From contig NZ_FNJO01000006.1 of NCBI RefSeq assembly GCF_900104095.1, positions 1 to 64,000 on the forward strand: a stretch of DNA of 64,000 nucleotides. Reading direction: 5' to 3'. The notes beneath the pieces are model-generated. The model ran no database searches, was not told the DNA's origin, and saw only the letters and a list, made by a program, of their open reading frames with translations. Positions within the stretch are counted from its first letter, which is position 1. Every line of letters starts with the position of its first letter. The position numbers were made by a program, and so were the translations under genes. This stretch comes from Ralstonia sp. 25mfcol4.1. GTDB lineage: Bacteria; Pseudomonadota; Gammaproteobacteria; Burkholderiales; Burkholderiaceae. Below are positions 39,686-50,321 of the stretch, piece after piece.

Positions 39686-40414
39686 TTATTCGACTTCGCG
39701 GAACAGTCGGCCCCAGCCCTTCAGGGCGCTGGTGTCCACGCCCGCCAGCCGCAGCGACTTCCACACCACGGTGGAAATCGTGTCGTACAGCGGGATGCCG
39801 GTCTCGGCCTCCAGTTCCTCGGCCAGGTGCGCGGCGCGCAGGTTGGTGCAGAACGTGGTGATGGCCTGCACGTCCTGGCCGGCCAGTTCGCGCACCATCC
39901 TGCGGATGGTGTCTTCCCCGACTTCGGCGAAGCTGTAGTTCACGTGCAGATCCAGATGCCGTTCGGCTGCGCAGTCGAAGCCGCTGCGCTGGTAGTTGGC
40001 GACGATGCGCTGCTGCACGTCGTTCAGGTAAGGCGTGGCCAGGCCGAAGCGGCGGGCGCCGGTCTTCTCCAGAATCTCGTTCAGCGCCAGCACGGAGGTG
40101 GTAGCCGGGATGCCGGTGGCCTCGGTGATCTGCTTGCACAGCGCCTGATCGCGGTCGAAGCCGAGCCAGCCCGACGACGTGCCGTTCCACGCGATCACAT
40201 CGACGCGCGCATCGGCCAGCAGCCGGGCAGCCCCGAGGATTTTCTCCAGGTCGAACTGGCCCAGCGCCTGGTCACGCAGCGAGATCTCGGTGACCGTGAA
40301 GCGCGAGAAATGCGCGCTGACGTTGGGCAGGCCGCTGACCATCGCGCTGGTAATGGGCTCCAGTGCGGTGTTGGAAGATGGCGTCAGCATGCCAAGGCGA
40401 ATCTGCTTGCTCAT
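39686..40414 (-). CDS. Maleate isomerase/arylmalonate decarboxylase-like protein
   Basis: A 242-residue Asp/Glu racemase-superfamily enzyme (RLGMLTPSSNTALEP start, typical of the maleate isomerase/AMDase branch). The second catalytic Cys is present in AITTFCTNLRAAH. The first position reads IAWNGTSSGWLGF, with Gly-Thr where isomerases and racemases have Cys. Arylmalonate decarboxylase has the same Gly/Cys arrangement (G74/C188), so a decarboxylase or one-base isomerase is more likely than a racemase; this is inference. It is in the operon with the dihydropyrimidinase. Confidence 0.85.
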   Translation of the reverse strand: MSKQIRLGMLTPSSNTALEPITSAMVSGLPNVSAHFSRFTVTEISLRDQALGQFDLEKILGAARLLADARVDVIAWNGTSSGWLGFDRDQALCKQITEATGIPATTSVLALNEILEKTGARRFGLATPYLNDVQQRIVANYQRSGFDCAAERHLDLHVNYSFAEVGEDTIRRMVRELAGQDVQAITTFCTNLRAAHLAEELEAETGIPLYDTISTVVWKSLRLAGVDTSALKGWGRLFREVE

Positions 40415-40477: not shown

Positions 40478-41659
40478 TTATTGTTCGGGTTTGTCGTTGA
40501 AGGCGAGCTGGGTGCCGGGCACGCCCTGTGTGGCGCGTGCCAGCTCCAGCTCCTTCTTCAACGCGGCCTGACGCGCGGCGTCGGGCTTGACGGTAGCGCC
40601 GGCCTGCAATGCCGGCAGCACGTAATCGTTGACCATCTGACGATACAGGTCCAGGTACTTTGCGTCGCGCAATCCGCCTTGCGTCGACATGATGCTGTTC
40701 ATGACGATCACCGCGTTCTGTCCGGGCAGCACCGTGATGAACTGGCCCTTGTAGCCCATGGCGCTGAATTCGCGCTCGCCCTTCACGATGTTGTTGACCC
40801 AGCAGTAGTAGCCGTAGTCCTTTGCGGGCCCCGACGGCGTGGTCATCTGCGCCACCCAGGACGCCGGCACGATCTGCTTGCCGTTCCAGCGGCCCTGGTT
40901 CAGCATCAGCATGCCAAGCCGCGCCATGTCGATCGAGCGAAGCCGCAGGCCCCAGCCGCCGGAGACGGCGCCCTTGCCGTCGGCACCGTCCCAGCGGAAG
41001 TGTGACATGCCGAGCGGTTCGAACAGCCGCTTCGCCGCATATTGCTGCTCGGGCATGCCGGCGACCTGGCTGACCGTGGCGCCGACCAGCACCGGGTTGA
41101 CGTCGATGTAGTCGAACTCTGTGCCTGGCGTGGTGCGCACGCTGGCCGAGGCGGCCACCTTGAGGCGGTCCGGCACGCCGTAGTAGAGCGTGTCGGTGCC
41201 TTCGACAAGCTTGTACGACAGGCCGCTCGACATCGACATCAGATGGCGCAGCTGGATCTGCTGCTTGTCGGCGAGCGCCTGTGCCAGATCCGGGCGTGCC
41301 GCCGCTAGGCGTGGCGCCGGGGCGTCGGTGGCGGCGAGCCTGCCGTCGCCGACCAGCGTGCCGACAAGCAGCGCGCTGATGAACTTGGTCACCGAATACA
41401 GCTCGTGGTTGTAGTCGCGTCCGAGGCCCTCGCTGTAGCGTTCGAACACCAGCTTGCCGTCCTTGATGACAAGCAGGCTGCGCACATCGAGCCTGTCGCG
41501 GCGAATCCATTCGGACAGCGCGACCAGCCGCGCGGAATCGACGCCGACCGCTTCGGGCTGCGCCGTGGGGATGCCACCGGCCGTGGCCGGGGCAGCCTGC
41601 ACCAGCGGTGCGCCGAAGGCCAGCAGTGTCGCCGCCAGGATCGGGGTGAGTCGTGTCAT
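40478..41659 (-). CDS. Periplasmic serine hydrolase, class C beta-lactamase fold
   Basis: A 393-residue penicillin-recognising-type serine hydrolase with a signal peptide ending VQAAPA. The nucleophile motif is ELYSVTKFISALLVG (SxxK). A Tyr-containing DYIDVNPVLVG segment fits the second motif, and the overall pattern (DGKLVFERYSEG) resembles NylB-type amide hydrolases/esterases more than true beta-lactamases. Export indicates action on an external amide, ester or peptide before uptake by the MFS carrier encoded immediately upstream. Substrate unknown. Confidence 0.88.
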   Translation of the reverse strand: MTRLTPILAATLLAFGAPLVQAAPATAGGIPTAQPEAVGVDSARLVALSEWIRRDRLDVRSLLVIKDGKLVFERYSEGLGRDYNHELYSVTKFISALLVGTLVGDGRLAATDAPAPRLAAARPDLAQALADKQQIQLRHLMSMSSGLSYKLVEGTDTLYYGVPDRLKVAASASVRTTPGTEFDYIDVNPVLVGATVSQVAGMPEQQYAAKRLFEPLGMSHFRWDGADGKGAVSGGWGLRLRSIDMARLGMLMLNQGRWNGKQIVPASWVAQMTTPSGPAKDYGYYCWVNNIVKGEREFSAMGYKGQFITVLPGQNAVIVMNSIMSTQGGLRDAKYLDLYRQMVNDYVLPALQAGATVKPDAARQAALKKELELARATQGVPGTQLAFNDKPEQ

Positions 41660-43954: not shown

Positions 43955-44416
43955 TCAGCCGCGCCGGCACATGGCGGCTGCCTTGTGGATGGCTTTGCGG
44001 ATGCGCGGAAACGTGCCACAGCGGCAGGCGATGCCTCGCATCGCCATATCGATCTGCAGGTCTGTCGGCACCGGGCAGCGGGCCAGCAGCGCCGCGGCCG
44101 CCACGAGTTGCCCGCTCTGGCAGTAGCCGCACTGCACCACATCGAATTCGATCCACGCCGCGCGCAAGGCCTGCGCGACCGGGCCTTGCAGGCCTTCGAC
44201 CGTGGTGATGCGCGCACCGCGCAGGTCCTTCAGCAGCAGCTGGCATGCCGGCGTGGCACGGTTGTCGAGCAATACCGTGCAGGCGCCGCACACGCCGATG
44301 CCGCACCCGAACTTGGTGCCGGTCAGGCGCTGCTCGCAGCGTAGCGCCCACAGCAGCGGCGTGTCGGTTGCAGACTTCAGGTCTACTGTCTTGCCATTGA
44401 GACGGACTGACACCAT
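43955..44416 (-). CDS. iorA: [2Fe-2S] subunit of an IorAB-type molybdenum hydroxylase
   Basis: A 153-residue iron-sulfur subunit. The plant-ferredoxin-type cluster has C38, C43, C46 and C58 (FGCGIGVCGACTVLL); the second cluster has C96, C99, C131 and C133 (VQCGYCQSG and IACRCG). It transfers electrons from the molybdenum centre of the large subunit. The start overlaps the large-subunit gene by 34 bases, so they are co-translated. A longer upstream frame exists but is antisense-like and lies inside the large subunit. The symbol is by family; the true substrate is unknown. Confidence 0.92.
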   Translation of the reverse strand: MVSVRLNGKTVDLKSATDTPLLWALRCEQRLTGTKFGCGIGVCGACTVLLDNRATPACQLLLKDLRGARITTVEGLQGPVAQALRAAWIEFDVVQCGYCQSGQLVAAAALLARCPVPTDLQIDMAMRGIACRCGTFPRIRKAIHKAAAMCRRG

Positions 44417-46749
44417 GGGTCGTTGCCCTCCGGTACGGCAGGTGTCGCCTGCAGCGGCAGCCTGCGGTGGCGCTGCCCGGTCAGCGCGAACAAGGCGTTG
44501 GCCACGGCGGGCGCGATGGGCGGGGTCGCGGTTTCTCCCACGCCTTCTGGCGCTGCGTCGCTGTCCAGCACATAGGTCTCGATGACGGGACAGGTCTCCA
44601 TGTCGACGATCGGAAAGTCGGGGAAGTAGTGCTGCTGCACCTGCCCGTTGCGCAACGTGATGGCCTGTTGCAGCGCGGCCGACAGCCCGAACACGATGCC
44701 GCTTTCCATCTGTTGCTCCACCAGGTTCGGATTGATGGCGCGGCCGCAATCGACCACGCAGACCACCCGCGTCACGCGGAAATCACGCTCGGCCGTGGCA
44801 CCCTGCCGCTTTGTCTCCGCCACCTCGGCCACCTGGGCCACCACGCTGCCGAATGATTCATGCATCGCCATGCCGCGTGCGAACGCCACGCCATCGCGGT
44901 CCCTCCATTGCGCGGGTCCGCGCCATGCGGCGCGCTCGCGCAGCGTCTCCAGTACGCGTACGTGGCGCCGGTGTGCCGGCTGCGTCAGCAATTCCAGCCG
45001 GAACGCGATCGGGTCCTTGCCCGCCGCCGCCGCCATCTCGTCGAGAAAGCACTCGACAAAGAACGCCTGATGCGAATGGCCGACCGAGCGCCAGTAGCCT
45101 ACGGGCACGGGCAGTTCGACGCGATGGTGGTGCACCAGCATGTTGGGGCACGCATAGGGCTGGTCGAACGCGCCCTCGGCCATGGTGGCATCGGTCAGCA
45201 GCCGGGCCAGGAAGCGCGGCTTGCCGAACGCGCGCGGGAGCGCCTGTTCGGCGATCGACTGGCTGGCCGAGACGCTTTGCCACGCCACAAGCCGTCCGTC
45301 AGCGTCCAGTGCGCCGCGGCACACAGCCATGCAGGCGGGCCGGTAGAAATCGTGCGTCATATCCTGTGGGCGCGACCAGATGGTCTGCACCGGGTTGGGC
45401 GATGCGTGCCGCGCGATGGCGGCCGCCTGCACGATGAAGTCGATTTCGAGCCGTCGTCCGAACGCGCCGCCCAGCAGTTGCTGTTGGATCTGCACGTCGC
45501 CGGGGCTCAGGCCCAGCATGTTCGCCACCGCCTTGCGCGCGGCCATCGGCACCTGGGTGGACACCCACACCTGGGCCTTGCGGCCGTCCACCTGCACCGT
45601 GCAGTTGACCGGCTCCAGCGCGCCATGCGCGAGGTAGGGCACCTCGTAGCGCATTTCCAGCATCTTGCCGCGCTTGAGCGCCGCTTCGGCGTCGCCGGTA
45701 CGATAGAACGTGTGGCCGCCGTCGCTGCTTTCCAGCGCACGGGTCAGCGCCGCGCGCACGTCATCGGTGTTCAGCCCCGCGGCCGGCCCGTGATCCCATT
45801 CGACGGGCAACTCGCACAGCGCGCGCATGGCGATGAACGGATTCTCGGCGATCGCCGCCACGCCCCCCGTGCCGCCGTGGTACGCATCGATCGGATAAAA
45901 CCCCTTTACGCCGATCTTGTGCATCACCTTGTTCGTGTCGAACTTGCGAACGGTGCCGCCCAGGGTCGGGCACATCAGCACGCTCGCATAGAGCAGGTGG
46001 TCGGGCAAGGCGTCGATGCCGAAACGCGCGGTGCCATCGAGCTTCGCCTTTGCCTCGATGTGGCCCAGGCGCTTGCCGATCAGCGTGAACGTCTTCGGGT
46101 CCTTGAGCGTGAGATGGCCGGGATGCGGCAGGTCGCGCGCGTCCGTGGCGAGTTCGCCAAAGCTGGCCGAACGCCCCGACGCCGCGTGGAACACGCGTCC
46201 GGAGCGGGCCTGACACTGTTCCACCTGCACGTCCCAGCGGCGGGCCGCGGCACCGCATAGCATGGCGCGCGCGGAGGCGCCCGCTTCGCGCATCGGCTGC
46301 CACAGGTCGACGATGCTGGTCGAGCCGCCGGTTACCATCGATCCCAGCAGGCGCGCGCTACGGCGGGCAAGGTATTCGCTGATATGCGCCAGCGCGCCGT
46401 CGTCGTCAGGGCGGAACGGCAGGCTGCGCGGCAGGTTCTCGTGATTGACGTAGAGCGGCTCGATGGCGGACTGCTCCACGCGCACCTGCGACCAGTCCGC
46501 ATCGAGTTCCTCGGCCAGCAGCATGGCCGCGCCGGTATGCACACCCTGGCCCATTTCGGCCTTGCTCATGACGATGGTCACGTGGTTGTCGGCACCAATC
46601 ACGACCCAGCCGTTCAGGCGCGCATCGCCCGTGGTGGCGGGTGGTGGCAGGTCGGCGTCGAGACGGTCCTCGGGCCGCAGCAATGTCCATCCCACCACCA
46701 GCGCGCCCGCCGCCGCACCGCCGAGTAGAAAGGTTCTGCGCGTCAGCAT
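44383..46749 (-). CDS. iorB: Molybdopterin-binding large subunit, isoquinoline 1-oxidoreductase/aldehyde dehydrogenase type
   Basis: A 788-residue molybdenum hydroxylase large subunit. The N-terminus MLTRRTFLLGGAAAGALVVG is a Tat-like signal or anchor. Cofactor-binding signatures include GWVVIGADNHVTIVMSKAEMGQG, QQLLGGAFGRRLEIDF, GYWRSVGHSHQAFFVECF and the catalytic Glu in APEGVGETATPPIAPAVANA. It pairs with the [2Fe-2S] subunit gene that overlaps its 3' end. No FAD subunit is present; IorAB-type enzymes pass electrons to a cytochrome instead. Substrate may be an N-heterocycle or an aldehyde. A much longer frame extends upstream but is not credible. Confidence 0.9.
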   Translation of the reverse strand: MLTRRTFLLGGAAAGALVVGWTLLRPEDRLDADLPPPATTGDARLNGWVVIGADNHVTIVMSKAEMGQGVHTGAAMLLAEELDADWSQVRVEQSAIEPLYVNHENLPRSLPFRPDDDGALAHISEYLARRSARLLGSMVTGGSTSIVDLWQPMREAGASARAMLCGAAARRWDVQVEQCQARSGRVFHAASGRSASFGELATDARDLPHPGHLTLKDPKTFTLIGKRLGHIEAKAKLDGTARFGIDALPDHLLYASVLMCPTLGGTVRKFDTNKVMHKIGVKGFYPIDAYHGGTGGVAAIAENPFIAMRALCELPVEWDHGPAAGLNTDDVRAALTRALESSDGGHTFYRTGDAEAALKRGKMLEMRYEVPYLAHGALEPVNCTVQVDGRKAQVWVSTQVPMAARKAVANMLGLSPGDVQIQQQLLGGAFGRRLEIDFIVQAAAIARHASPNPVQTIWSRPQDMTHDFYRPACMAVCRGALDADGRLVAWQSVSASQSIAEQALPRAFGKPRFLARLLTDATMAEGAFDQPYACPNMLVHHHRVELPVPVGYWRSVGHSHQAFFVECFLDEMAAAAGKDPIAFRLELLTQPAHRRHVRVLETLRERAAWRGPAQWRDRDGVAFARGMAMHESFGSVVAQVAEVAETKRQGATAERDFRVTRVVCVVDCGRAINPNLVEQQMESGIVFGLSAALQQAITLRNGQVQQHYFPDFPIVDMETCPVIETYVLDSDAAPEGVGETATPPIAPAVANALFALTGQRHRRLPLQATPAVPEGNDPWCQSVSMARQ

Positions 46750-46991
46750 GACATGGCCTCTGGTCGCCTCCGGTCGCAAACGCAAGCGCGCAAGCCCGAT
46801 TCTCTTGCTGCTGCGATCACCTATATTAGTCAATGTCGCCCGCCATCGCGAGGCGGCACTGGGACATCTAGGCCTAAAGGCCAAGGCGTGCCTGGCAGAC
46901 ATAAATGCGATGGAATACGGATTGAAAGCCGATGAAAGCGCGCGCCCCCGCGCATGCGGGCACGCCGCCGGTTGTCCGGGGGAGGTACGCG

Positions 46992-49349
46992 ATGCCCGTC
47001 GAAGCGATGCATGCCTGGGTGCTGCGATTGTCGGCCCCGTGGAAACAGGCGCTGCTGCGGCATGGCCTGGACCTGTCGCTGGTTCGATCGGCCGACGACA
47101 CCGCCGACATCCTCGAACGTACGCTGCAGATCGACTGGTCGGACCCGCGCGTGGCCGAACTGAGCCGTGCCACGCGCCGTGCCGTGGAACCGGGCGACCC
47201 CGCGCGCAGCCTGCTCTATCACATGCTGGCGCTGGCGGAGTGCCCGACGCTGGATGAGGGTATCGAGCTGGCCGACCTGGATCTGCTGGAAAACTACATC
47301 TATTCCCGCGCGCCGCTGCCCGACGACTGGGCATCGCTCGATGTCGCGGTGCTTGCCTGCCAGTACCGGCCGGCACGCCGCACGGGGCACCAGCTGCACG
47401 CAGACCTGGTGTTTTCTCGGCTCGGCATCGCGCGCAACGGCGACACCGAATCGAGTTACGACCCCCGCACGCGCAGCCACGTGCCGACCGTAGCCGGGCA
47501 CCCCGAGCACGTGCGGGTGCTGCCCGCCCACTATGCGGCGTTCCTGGTGCGCAGGACGCGCGGTGCCAGCGCGCTGAGCCTGGTCGAAGGCGAGCGGGAG
47601 GGCGACGAAGCGCGCGAGTTCCTGGTGCCGGTGCGCAAGCTGTTCGCCAGCGGCTGCGTGCCGGGGCAGGACCTGACGCTGGAATACGGCCACCACCACG
47701 TCGGCGACAAGCTGCGCCGCGCCGTGCAGGCGCGCTGGGGCGTAACGCCGGAGCCCAGGGCCGTGCTGGCCGATCCGCCTTATTCCCAGTCGTGGCGCTT
47801 TCCGGATGCCGCGCAAAGCGCCGCGCCGGTGCCAGGCTCCACGGCGCCGCCGATCGCGCTGGTGCGCAAGGGCGATTCCGTATGGCTGATGCCGGGGGCG
47901 TTGCCGTTGATCGAGCCCCTGACGCCAGAGCACTTCAAGATTCGGGGCTTCCGCGTGCCGGCGCAATGGCGCGTGTTGCCGGTGGTCAACCGGCGCTTCA
48001 CCACCCAGCGCATTTTCTCGGACCTGTTCAAACTTTTCCTGGAAGGCATCAACGCGCTGCGCGAGCGATATGTCCCGCATTTTGCCCCAGCGTTCCTGCG
48101 CTATCCGGAGCCTCGCAACGCGCCGGAGTACATCAATATCCGGCACCGCTGGCAAGACGACGGGGCCACCTATCGCGACATGTGCGCGGAGCCTTCGGAC
48201 CGCGAGCAGTTCCTGGCCGAAGTCAAGCAGGGCGGCTATCACGCCCAGCTGTTCCTGGACCATTGTGCCGAAGGGACGGTCAGCGTGCGCGTGGCGCAAT
48301 GGCCGGACCGCCACGTGTTTCCGGCCTACTCCGTGGTGGCCGCGCCGGATTTCTATCCCTACGCCGACCAGGCGGAATTGCAGCGGTGGTTCCGCGAGCA
48401 GAAGATCGATCCGAAGTCGCAATTTCGCAGCGGATCGCCGCTCTCGCTCAGTGCCGAACGGCTGGCCGCCAATCCCCTGCATCGTGACCCATTCAGCGCG
48501 GCGCGGGCGTTTCCGCCCGGCGAGACCACCATGCCCGTGTCGTTCAGCCTGGCACCACGCGGGCAGGCACCCAACGCGGACGGCACCCACGTGCCGCGCA
48601 TGGTGTCGTTCCTGTCCGATGCATCGTCCAGCGTGTTCGCGCCGGGCTGGGACGTGACCTATGCCGGTGGTTGGGGCGGCATCTATCTGGCCACGTTCGG
48701 GCTGGGCAGCCCGTTTGCGGAGGACATCAAGCTGTGCGCGGCGTCGAACAGCTTCTGGCCGGCGCTAAGCCCGGACGCGTCGCGCACGTTCCGTCGCGCC
48801 GATGCGCCCACCGCGCTGCCGATGCTCGATGACGAACTGGGCTATCACCCATCGCATCCGCTGGCGCAAGCCGGGGCGACACGGCCGGGCTGGGACGGCG
48901 AGTACGGCCCGTACCTGACCCCGGAGGGCGAGGTGGACTACGCCGACATCCACCGCTCGGATTACGTGGCCAATGCGTTGCGTGGCCAGATGCTGTTCGG
49001 CGCGTTCGAGCATGTCGACTCGGCCGAGCTGATCCGGCGGATTGCCGCGCTGCGCCACGCGGTGGCGGCGTGCGACAACGGCCAGGTGCCGTCGCACACG
49101 CGGCTGTGGCTGGTATCGGCGCGCAGGCTGGACGCCGCTCCCGCGGCTGTCCAGGATGGCGCGACGGATATCGTCTATCGCTTCGTGTTCGTGCTTCCCG
49201 CCGATGCCAGTGCCGTGCCCCGCCAGCATGAACCGGGGCGGCTGCGCGTGCCCTATGCCGAGGCGCTGCAATGCGACGCCACGCCGGCGGGCCTGGTCGG
49301 CGCGGTGCGGCGCCGCGCCCCTGGCCCGGAAGCACTGGCGTTGTACTGA
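46992..49349 (+). CDS. Large protein resembling LodA/GoxA CTQ-dependent amino-acid oxidases
   Basis: A 785-residue protein with no signal peptide. The start at 46992 has an excellent GGGGGAGG six bases upstream and is preferred to an ATG 60 bases earlier. I do not recognise the N-terminal domain, though HADLVFSRLGIARNGDT loosely recalls the IGIARVGNS segment of LodA. The C-terminal region has D578-x3-C582 (EDIKLCAASNSFWPA) and W634 (RPGWDGEYGP). LodA needs an Asp four residues before the crosslinked Cys and a Trp some 65 residues later to form cysteine tryptophylquinone. The next gene, six bases downstream, encodes a LodB-like flavoprotein, the known maturation partner type. Assignment is an inference from this combination. 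Confidence 0.55.
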   Translation: MPVEAMHAWVLRLSAPWKQALLRHGLDLSLVRSADDTADILERTLQIDWSDPRVAELSRATRRAVEPGDPARSLLYHMLALAECPTLDEGIELADLDLLENYIYSRAPLPDDWASLDVAVLACQYRPARRTGHQLHADLVFSRLGIARNGDTESSYDPRTRSHVPTVAGHPEHVRVLPAHYAAFLVRRTRGASALSLVEGEREGDEAREFLVPVRKLFASGCVPGQDLTLEYGHHHVGDKLRRAVQARWGVTPEPRAVLADPPYSQSWRFPDAAQSAAPVPGSTAPPIALVRKGDSVWLMPGALPLIEPLTPEHFKIRGFRVPAQWRVLPVVNRRFTTQRIFSDLFKLFLEGINALRERYVPHFAPAFLRYPEPRNAPEYINIRHRWQDDGATYRDMCAEPSDREQFLAEVKQGGYHAQLFLDHCAEGTVSVRVAQWPDRHVFPAYSVVAAPDFYPYADQAELQRWFREQKIDPKSQFRSGSPLSLSAERLAANPLHRDPFSAARAFPPGETTMPVSFSLAPRGQAPNADGTHVPRMVSFLSDASSSVFAPGWDVTYAGGWGGIYLATFGLGSPFAEDIKLCAASNSFWPALSPDASRTFRRADAPTALPMLDDELGYHPSHPLAQAGATRPGWDGEYGPYLTPEGEVDYADIHRSDYVANALRGQMLFGAFEHVDSAELIRRIAALRHAVAACDNGQVPSHTRLWLVSARRLDAAPAAVQDGATDIVYRFVFVLPADASAVPRQHEPGRLRVPYAEALQCDATPAGLVGAVRRRAPGPEALALY

Positions 49350-49355
49350 CCGATC

Positions 49356-50321
49356 ATGCGCAATGGTGGCGTGCTGGTGATCGGCGACGGTCCGGCGGGA
49401 TGCGCGGCCGCCATTGCGGCGGCCCGGGCCGGTGGCGCGGTGACGATGGTGGGCGCCGGCCGTATGCGCGCGGTGCCCGAATGCGCGTCGGCGGGGGCGT
49501 TGCGGCTGCTGGATGCGATCTCGCCTGCGTTCGCTACCCGGTCCCACATCTGGCTCGACCACGCATGGCCAGACGCTACCGTAATCACACAGCGTGCCCG
49601 GGCCGTCGATCGTGCGCAGCTCGATCGTGGCCTGCGCGAGGCGGCGGTGCGCGCCGGGGCCGACTACCAGGTCATGCCGGCGTCGACTTTGCGGCCACGA
49701 GTGGCCGGCGATCGCGTGACGGGCGTGGAGGGCATGTCCGGCGGTGGCCTTGCTGCCGGCGCCTACGTCGTGATCGACGCGTCCGGCGTGAACGGGTGGC
49801 TGCGCCGCACCCTGGGCCTGCCGGAAGGGATCGACTCGGGAGCCTGGTGGCTGCAGCGCGGCTTTGGCGTGCTGGCTGGGGGGCAGGCCAGCGCGCCAGG
49901 TACGCAGTTCGTCATTGGCGCCAACGGATGGCTGTGGCGGTACGCCACGCCACAGGGCTGCATCTGGACGGCGCTGTGCAGTACGCGCGACGCCAGCGTG
50001 GCATGGCCCCCCGGCATGCGGCCAGTTGGCCGGATCTGGCGCGAGTGCCGCCGCTGGCGGCATCTGCGGCAGGCGGCAGGCGCGGGTTACTTCGTTTGCG
50101 GCGATGCGGCTGGCTATCTCGATCCGGCTACCGGCGATGGCCTTCGCTTTGCGCTGGAATCGGGTGCCCGCGCCGGTGCGCTGGCCGCCGGCGTGGTGCG
50201 CTGGCCGCAGCGGAGCAGCCTGGCGGCGGCGTTGTACGCGGACTGGGTGTTGCAGACCTATCTGACCAGTCGGGCCGCACTGCGCGAGGTGTATGCGCGC
50301 GCGCACCTGGCGGTGCGGTGA
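49356..50321 (+). CDS. LodB/GoxB-like FAD-dependent maturation protein
   Basis: A 321-residue flavoprotein monooxygenase-like protein. The Rossmann motif GDGPAGCAAAIAAARAG lies at residues 10-26 and the second FAD motif GYFVCGDAAGYLDPATGDG near 245-263; the middle part resembles tryptophan-halogenase-like/LodB proteins, with a shorter chain than LodB. LodB-type proteins install the quinone on their LodA partner. It begins six bases after the large protein stop, so it is translationally coupled. A generic FAD oxidoreductase role is possible, but the tight pairing favours cofactor maturation of the upstream protein. Confidence 0.75.
   Translation: MRNGGVLVIGDGPAGCAAAIAAARAGGAVTMVGAGRMRAVPECASAGALRLLDAISPAFATRSHIWLDHAWPDATVITQRARAVDRAQLDRGLREAAVRAGADYQVMPASTLRPRVAGDRVTGVEGMSGGGLAAGAYVVIDASGVNGWLRRTLGLPEGIDSGAWWLQRGFGVLAGGQASAPGTQFVIGANGWLWRYATPQGCIWTALCSTRDASVAWPPGMRPVGRIWRECRRWRHLRQAAGAGYFVCGDAAGYLDPATGDGLRFALESGARAGALAAGVVRWPQRSSLAAALYADWVLQTYLTSRAALREVYARAHLAVR

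Follow-up and report, generated by a model that had tools for sequence, protein, structure and literature searches.

To our knowledge, few enzymes that carry a cysteine tryptophylquinone (CTQ) have been characterised, namely QHNDH, the L-lysine 6-oxidase LodA (2YMW/3WEU) and the glycine oxidase GoxA (6BYW). QHNDH is a dehydrogenase. Its gamma subunit, QhpC, is a short polypeptide into which a radical SAM enzyme introduces several Cys-Asp/Glu crosslinks (PMC7876137). LodA-like proteins have been divided into groups I-V on the basis of 168 genes collected by BLASTP from GoxA/LodA at a threshold of 1e-10; they are encoded in an operon with a lodB-like gene, and some of them carry a catalase-fold domain as a fusion (Campillo-Brocal et al. 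2015; PMC4417212).

The window analysed here is a stretch of 64,000 nucleotides from Ralstonia sp. 25mfcol4.1 that contains two adjacent genes, A and B. It is quite likely that these encode an enzyme and its maturase, with A a remote member of the LodA/GoxA fold whose CTQ joins C582 and W589, a reading that draws on homology, fold, motif, invariance, operon and neighbours, and from which we infer the CTQ itself, the chemistry, the substrate, the electron acceptor and the link to a Mo-enzyme. Like LodA and GoxA, A has the D-x3-C and W-P-x-x-x-P CTQ motif, a flavoprotein gene downstream and, in the predicted model, the same core fold. Unlike them, it falls below the Pfam and NCBIfam cut-offs, with about 15% structural identity, about 115 extra N-terminal residues, a tight C-x6-W where the Cys-Trp spacing of LodA is 65 by numbering, and Ala550 at the position of LodA C448 and GoxA H583. 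The motif of QhpC (D-x3-C-x5-W-PAQVPD) is nearly the same as that of A (D-x3-C-x6-W-PALSPD), but with 785 residues, one invariant Cys and a PF08992 score below the cut-off, A is not a QHNDH gamma subunit. B shares its FAD enzyme superfamily with QhpG, LodB and GoxB and, like theirs, its gene adjoins that of a known or predicted CTQ protein, yet B scores under their model cut-offs and forms a separate clade.

The gene pair and the fold of protein A

A and B are genuine genes that are conserved as a pair. The strong Shine-Dalgarno sequence GGGGGAGG 5' of the ATG at 46992 favours this start of A over an in-frame alternative ATG further upstream, at 46932. A sequence-only reading had placed D578, C582 and W634 in A and a partner gene six bases past it; the translation has all three residues at these positions, and the six-base gap between the stop of A and B at 49356-50321 agrees with the ORF coordinates. 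At the locus Rfam gives no match, the promoter scan found no promoter and terminator matches are at about chance level. The features of the pair are as follows.

46992..49349, plus strand: ORF A, 785 aa, putative CTQ enzyme of the LodA/GoxA fold
46992..47336, plus strand: N-terminal region of A, about residues 1-115, mostly helical, not in LodA
47337..49031, plus strand: LodA/GoxA-like core of A, about residues 116-680, from VIA-align ranges and profile segments
48639..48641, plus strand: A550 in FAPG, at the position of LodA C448 / GoxA H583
48723..48725, plus strand: D578, counterpart of LodA D512 / GoxA D678 / QHNDH Asp33
48735..48737, plus strand: C582, predicted CTQ cysteine (LodA C516)
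48756..48758, plus strand: W589, predicted CTQ tryptophan (LodA W581, QHNDH W43)
48891..48893, plus strand: W634 in GWDGE, invariant, does not correspond to the CTQ Trp of LodA
49356..50321, plus strand: ORF B, 321 aa, flavoprotein of the CmlS/QhpG/LodB superfamily, predicted CTQ maturase

AlphaFold reached a pLDDT of 35 from the single sequence of A, and the model used instead is the alignment-based one with 65 homologues (pLDDT 88.9, pTM 0.91). VIA-align of this model has GoxA or LodA in all of the top 14 rows (Z 9.4-6.9, next row Z 4.4), with matches of about 300 residues at 14-16% identity, and Foldseek also places GoxA first, but weakly (E 0.74). The structure prediction proposed in the sequence-only reading thus gives the fold of LodA/GoxA. 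The solved GoxA structures among the matches include the H583C, F316A and Y766F mutants. Residues 116-684 of the model span LodA 2-645, and the roughly 115 N-terminal residues outside this range are common to 67 of 67 A homologues (e.g. W17, S73, H77). The whole N-terminal half had been thought to be unlike LodA, which holds for about residues 1-115 but not beyond, where A superposes on LodA from its residue 2 and keeps the GIARxG and DGxV...PDFxP segments. Profile comparison without structure finds three weak collinear segments common to A and LodA, at 144-156, 423-456 and 541-575 (GIARxG; DGxV...APDFxP; FxPGxxV).

At the sequence level A gives nothing over the cut-off against Pfam LodA_N/LodA_C or NCBIfam LodA/GoxA, LodA_C (Pfam) is not found in the genome, and PDB sequences searched with a profile of A return no relevant match. 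A LodA profile that scores held-out distant LodA relatives at 268-315 bits detects 3 of 67 A proteins, the best at 19 bits. LodA_N and QHNDH gamma are the best sub-threshold Pfam matches of the A family; among 36 members one matches LodA_N (E 0.0093) and one NF038172 (E 0.058), and the only sub-threshold Pfam match of A itself is PF08992 (QHNDH gamma; 13.2 bits, cut-off 25). The shared fold and profile segments, together with the few matches to the LodA profile, imply that A is homologous to LodA and lies far outside the recognised family, and on the predicted structure it is a remote, unrecognised branch of the LodA/GoxA fold superfamily. The divergent group that had been anticipated does exist, and it is larger than was guessed. 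The assignment to a LodA/GoxA-like class is upheld by the fold, the D-x3-C...W-P-A-x-x-P motif and the conserved operon, but 'LodA' is too narrow a name.

The predicted cofactor motif

The CTQ of LodA links C516 and W581 (PMC4417212), of which the former lies in PWQAD512FFNC516 and the latter in YYSYWW581PPQSP (alignment to 3WEU/2YMW); in GoxA, D678-x3-C682 is followed by SWW697AANLP (alignment). All 17 LodA relatives read carry D-x3-C with a Trp element after it, and the Cys-Trp spacing is elastic among LodA relatives, from about 5 to 65. A QHNDH gamma control sequence, which scores 142.9 bits against PF08992, reads D-LYG-C-SDPCW-W-PAQVPD and matches the known CTQ pair of QHNDH gamma, C37/W43 (PMC7876137). 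A reads D578-IKL-C582-AASNSF-W589-PALSPD. All but one of the 67 A proteins have this compact motif; no other ORF among the 3,135 of the loci has it, nor does any shuffled ORF, and the spacing from the Cys to W589 is 7 in all 67. When the core profiles are aligned, C582 falls on the CTQ Cys of LodA and FW589PA on WWPA, at a score of 27.5 against a shuffled mean of 13.2, which is marginal alone, 1 of 60 shuffles scoring as high.

Invariant in 67 of 67 distinct A proteins are D578, C582, W589, W634, W553, W17, E577 and D543, and C582 is the sole invariant Cys of the family. D578 and C582 are kept in homologues down to about 29% identity, and their invariance argues that this Asp and Cys are no chance occurrence. 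The motif shared with LodA, GoxA and QHNDH and the fixed spacing point to W589, and not W634, so that W589 is probably the CTQ tryptophan partner of C582. W634 had been the choice of the sequence-only reading, which had also asked for C582 and W634 to be conserved in homologues, as both are. A CTQ that joins C582 and W634 would draw on this invariance, on the conserved (G)WDG context and on the LodA spacing of 65, which is nearer to 52 (C582-W634) than to 7 (C582-W589). It is nevertheless very improbable, since W17, W553 and W589 are equally invariant, the CTQ Trp of LodA, GoxA and QHNDH sits in a W-P/A-P/A-x-x-P element that in A is W589, the spacing within the LodA family is elastic, and the distance from the Cys to W634 varies with indels from 42 to 67 across the A proteins. 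The mass change on CTQ formation is not the loss that had been expected, as two O added and four H removed amount to about +28 Da (arithmetic).

Model confidence at 581-590 is lower (mean 70) than in the flanking residues, which may reflect the crosslink missing from the model and is only suggestive. Position 550 is Ala in 66 of 67 A homologues, where LodA has C448 and GoxA H583, which we take to be residues with a role in those enzymes; with this replacement the substrate pocket of A should differ, and a new substrate, as had been proposed, is plausible.

The weak PF08992 match of A was traced with a real QHNDH gamma sequence to the shared cofactor motif. A placement of the LodA Cys in ENCVGG and of its Trp in PWQAD, both absent from A, was rejected by the numbering of 2YMW/3WEU (C516, W581). 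Positions 48723-48776 of the window, the QHNDH gamma control (L122), the LodA relatives (L089-L106) and GoxA have in common D-x3-C-x(n)-[aromatic/M]-W-[PA]-[PA]-x-x-P, possibly a general signature of CTQ proteins.

Flavoprotein B and the spread of the pair

B contains the FAD-binding fingerprint and scores 81 bits against the QhpG model NF049967 (cut-off 240) and 24.4 and 25.3 bits against the LodB/GoxB models NF038171/NF038174 (cut-off 400 each). A quick tree has a branch (SH-aLRT 99) that separates 33 B proteins from 12 flavoproteins beside LodA-type genes and five QhpG, so that B is best read as its own lineage of putative CTQ maturases beside LodB/GoxB and QhpG. The description of B as a LodB-like partner is supported by the conserved operon, but as a name it is too narrow for a clade separate from both LodB/GoxB and QhpG.

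Among solved structures the profile of B matches CmlS-type halogenases and the peptidyl-Trp dihydroxylase 7ctq, and as its best relatives are CmlS and other halogenases, B could be a small-molecule halogenase or monooxygenase that lies beside A by coincidence. This is exceedingly unlikely given that B adjoins A in 83 of 86 loci from many phyla, and that the CTQ maturases GoxB and QhpG likewise have CmlS as their closest structural relative (PMC7876137). B might instead install another modification (hydroxy-Trp or a plain thioether) in a LodA-fold A, or A might be non-enzymatic, which would suit a B clade of its own and an A family of which the LodA profile detects so few members and at so low a score. 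This too is improbable, as neither the three cofactor residues nor their motif changes across many phyla and B stays adjacent to A across loci, both of which favour a role of B as CTQ maturase.

Close copies of A occur in Cupriavidus, Burkholderia and Paraburkholderia, and when one genome for each GTDB species was scanned, 69 loci were found, in cyanobacteria, Nitrospira, planctomycetes, Verrucomicrobia, Acidobacteria, Bacteroidota, Actinomycetota, Bacillota, Myxococcota and Proteobacteria. In a sample of 398 genomes of the phylum the family was found only as the window's own copy, and its distribution is thus patchy. The best match of the A family to the LodA relatives compared is about 5e-5, in a tiny database, and at the 1e-10 threshold of the 2015 survey the family was presumably out of reach. 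A search of the open-access literature, with subscription papers outside its range, found no paper on this A/B branch. One relative (L036) and the copy on the Acaryochloris marina plasmid pREC1 (L096) have no B gene nearby. The Acaryochloris copy, the only record with a feature table among three plasmid matches, is annotated 'hypothetical protein' in RefSeq, which does recognise relatives of LodA by name; within about 3 kb of this copy there is a gene for a Dyp-type peroxidase.

The copy in Cupriavidus sp. EM10 (NZ_CP076061.1, 1941988-1944329; L006/L007, L121) is split over two overlapping frames and is thus frameshifted (pseudogene or assembly error). In two genomes of another Burkholderiaceae genus (L018, L019) only N-terminal remnants of A are present, and both stop at the W113 codon, with TAA in one and TGA in the other, as if they shared a decayed ancestor.

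Neighbouring genes and the proposed reaction

Genes that accompany the pair in the window and in other loci include the following.

44383..46749, minus strand: Mo-hydroxylase large subunit (aldehyde/xanthine oxidoreductase type) with a twin-arginine-like start, divergent from A
43955..44416, minus strand: [2Fe-2S] subunit of the Mo-hydroxylase
L059, 9370-10539: amicyanin-like protein
L063, 4815-5915: amicyanin-like protein
L065, 9354-10523: amicyanin-like protein
L075, 9228-10511: amicyanin-like protein
L087, 4553-5659: amicyanin-like protein

The Mo-hydroxylase (MoCoBD domains) and its [2Fe-2S] subunit are found divergent from A in 14 of 14 close-clade Burkholderiaceae loci. Peroxidases occupy an operon position with A in several phyla: an FMP-type haem-binding/peroxidase protein accompanies A in 10 loci, an animal-type haem peroxidase in five loci of five phyla and a Dyp-type peroxidase in one, which echoes the catalase-fold fusions in LodA-like groups I-V. 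The amicyanin-like cupredoxin protein is uncharacterised and about 390 aa long, with its amicyanin-like domain at the N-terminus, and it directly adjoins A/B in the five loci listed. Among the window's own neighbours of A/B no peroxidase or cupredoxin was seen. The neighbours fit an amine oxidase: as indirect evidence they agree with a quinoprotein whose products are H2O2 and an aldehyde, or which passes electrons to copper in some branches.

In the proposed mechanism B, with FAD and O2, would oxidise W589 of A to a tryptophylquinone that is thioether-linked to C582 (CTQ), and D578 beside it would serve as the catalytic or biogenesis Asp and act as a base. The quinone of mature A would probably form a Schiff base with the substrate, a primary amine or an amino acid, and turnover would set free ammonia together with an aldehyde or oxo-acid. 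O2 would then re-oxidise the enzyme with formation of H2O2, or a copper protein might do so in some branches. The aldehyde product of A may in turn be oxidised by the Mo-hydroxylase encoded next to it in Burkholderiaceae. If A carried CTQ but were a dehydrogenase whose electrons go to a carrier such as a cupredoxin and not to O2, this would accord with the adjoining amicyanin-like genes and with the tight motif common to A and QHNDH. Such a function is rather unlikely, as haem peroxidase-type neighbours, which fit H2O2 production, occur in more loci than cupredoxins, LodA and GoxA with the same fold are oxidases, and the pair in the window is without a cupredoxin neighbour.

A reading of A and B as a third branch of CTQ enzymes, which would combine a LodA-type fold and a QHNDH-type compact motif with a maturase lineage of its own and a distinct substrate, is possible, though we regard it as doubtful. 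If true, the shared signature D-x3-C-x(n)-[WFYM]-W-[PA]-[PA]-x-x-P would be general for CTQ proteins, and the cofactor element of QHNDH gamma and LodA could have one origin. A branch with its own maturase seems to be unlabelled, with no curated model and a single feature-table record that calls it hypothetical. It would offer new amine oxidases and a compact system in which to study the construction of a quinone from Trp by a flavoprotein, and with a sequence signature drawn from it more CTQ proteins could be found.

Elsewhere in the window, a protein of the arylmalonate decarboxylase / Asp-Glu racemase family is encoded on the minus strand at 39689-40414, and beside it, on the same strand, lies a gene for a beta-lactamase-fold hydrolase (40481-41659).
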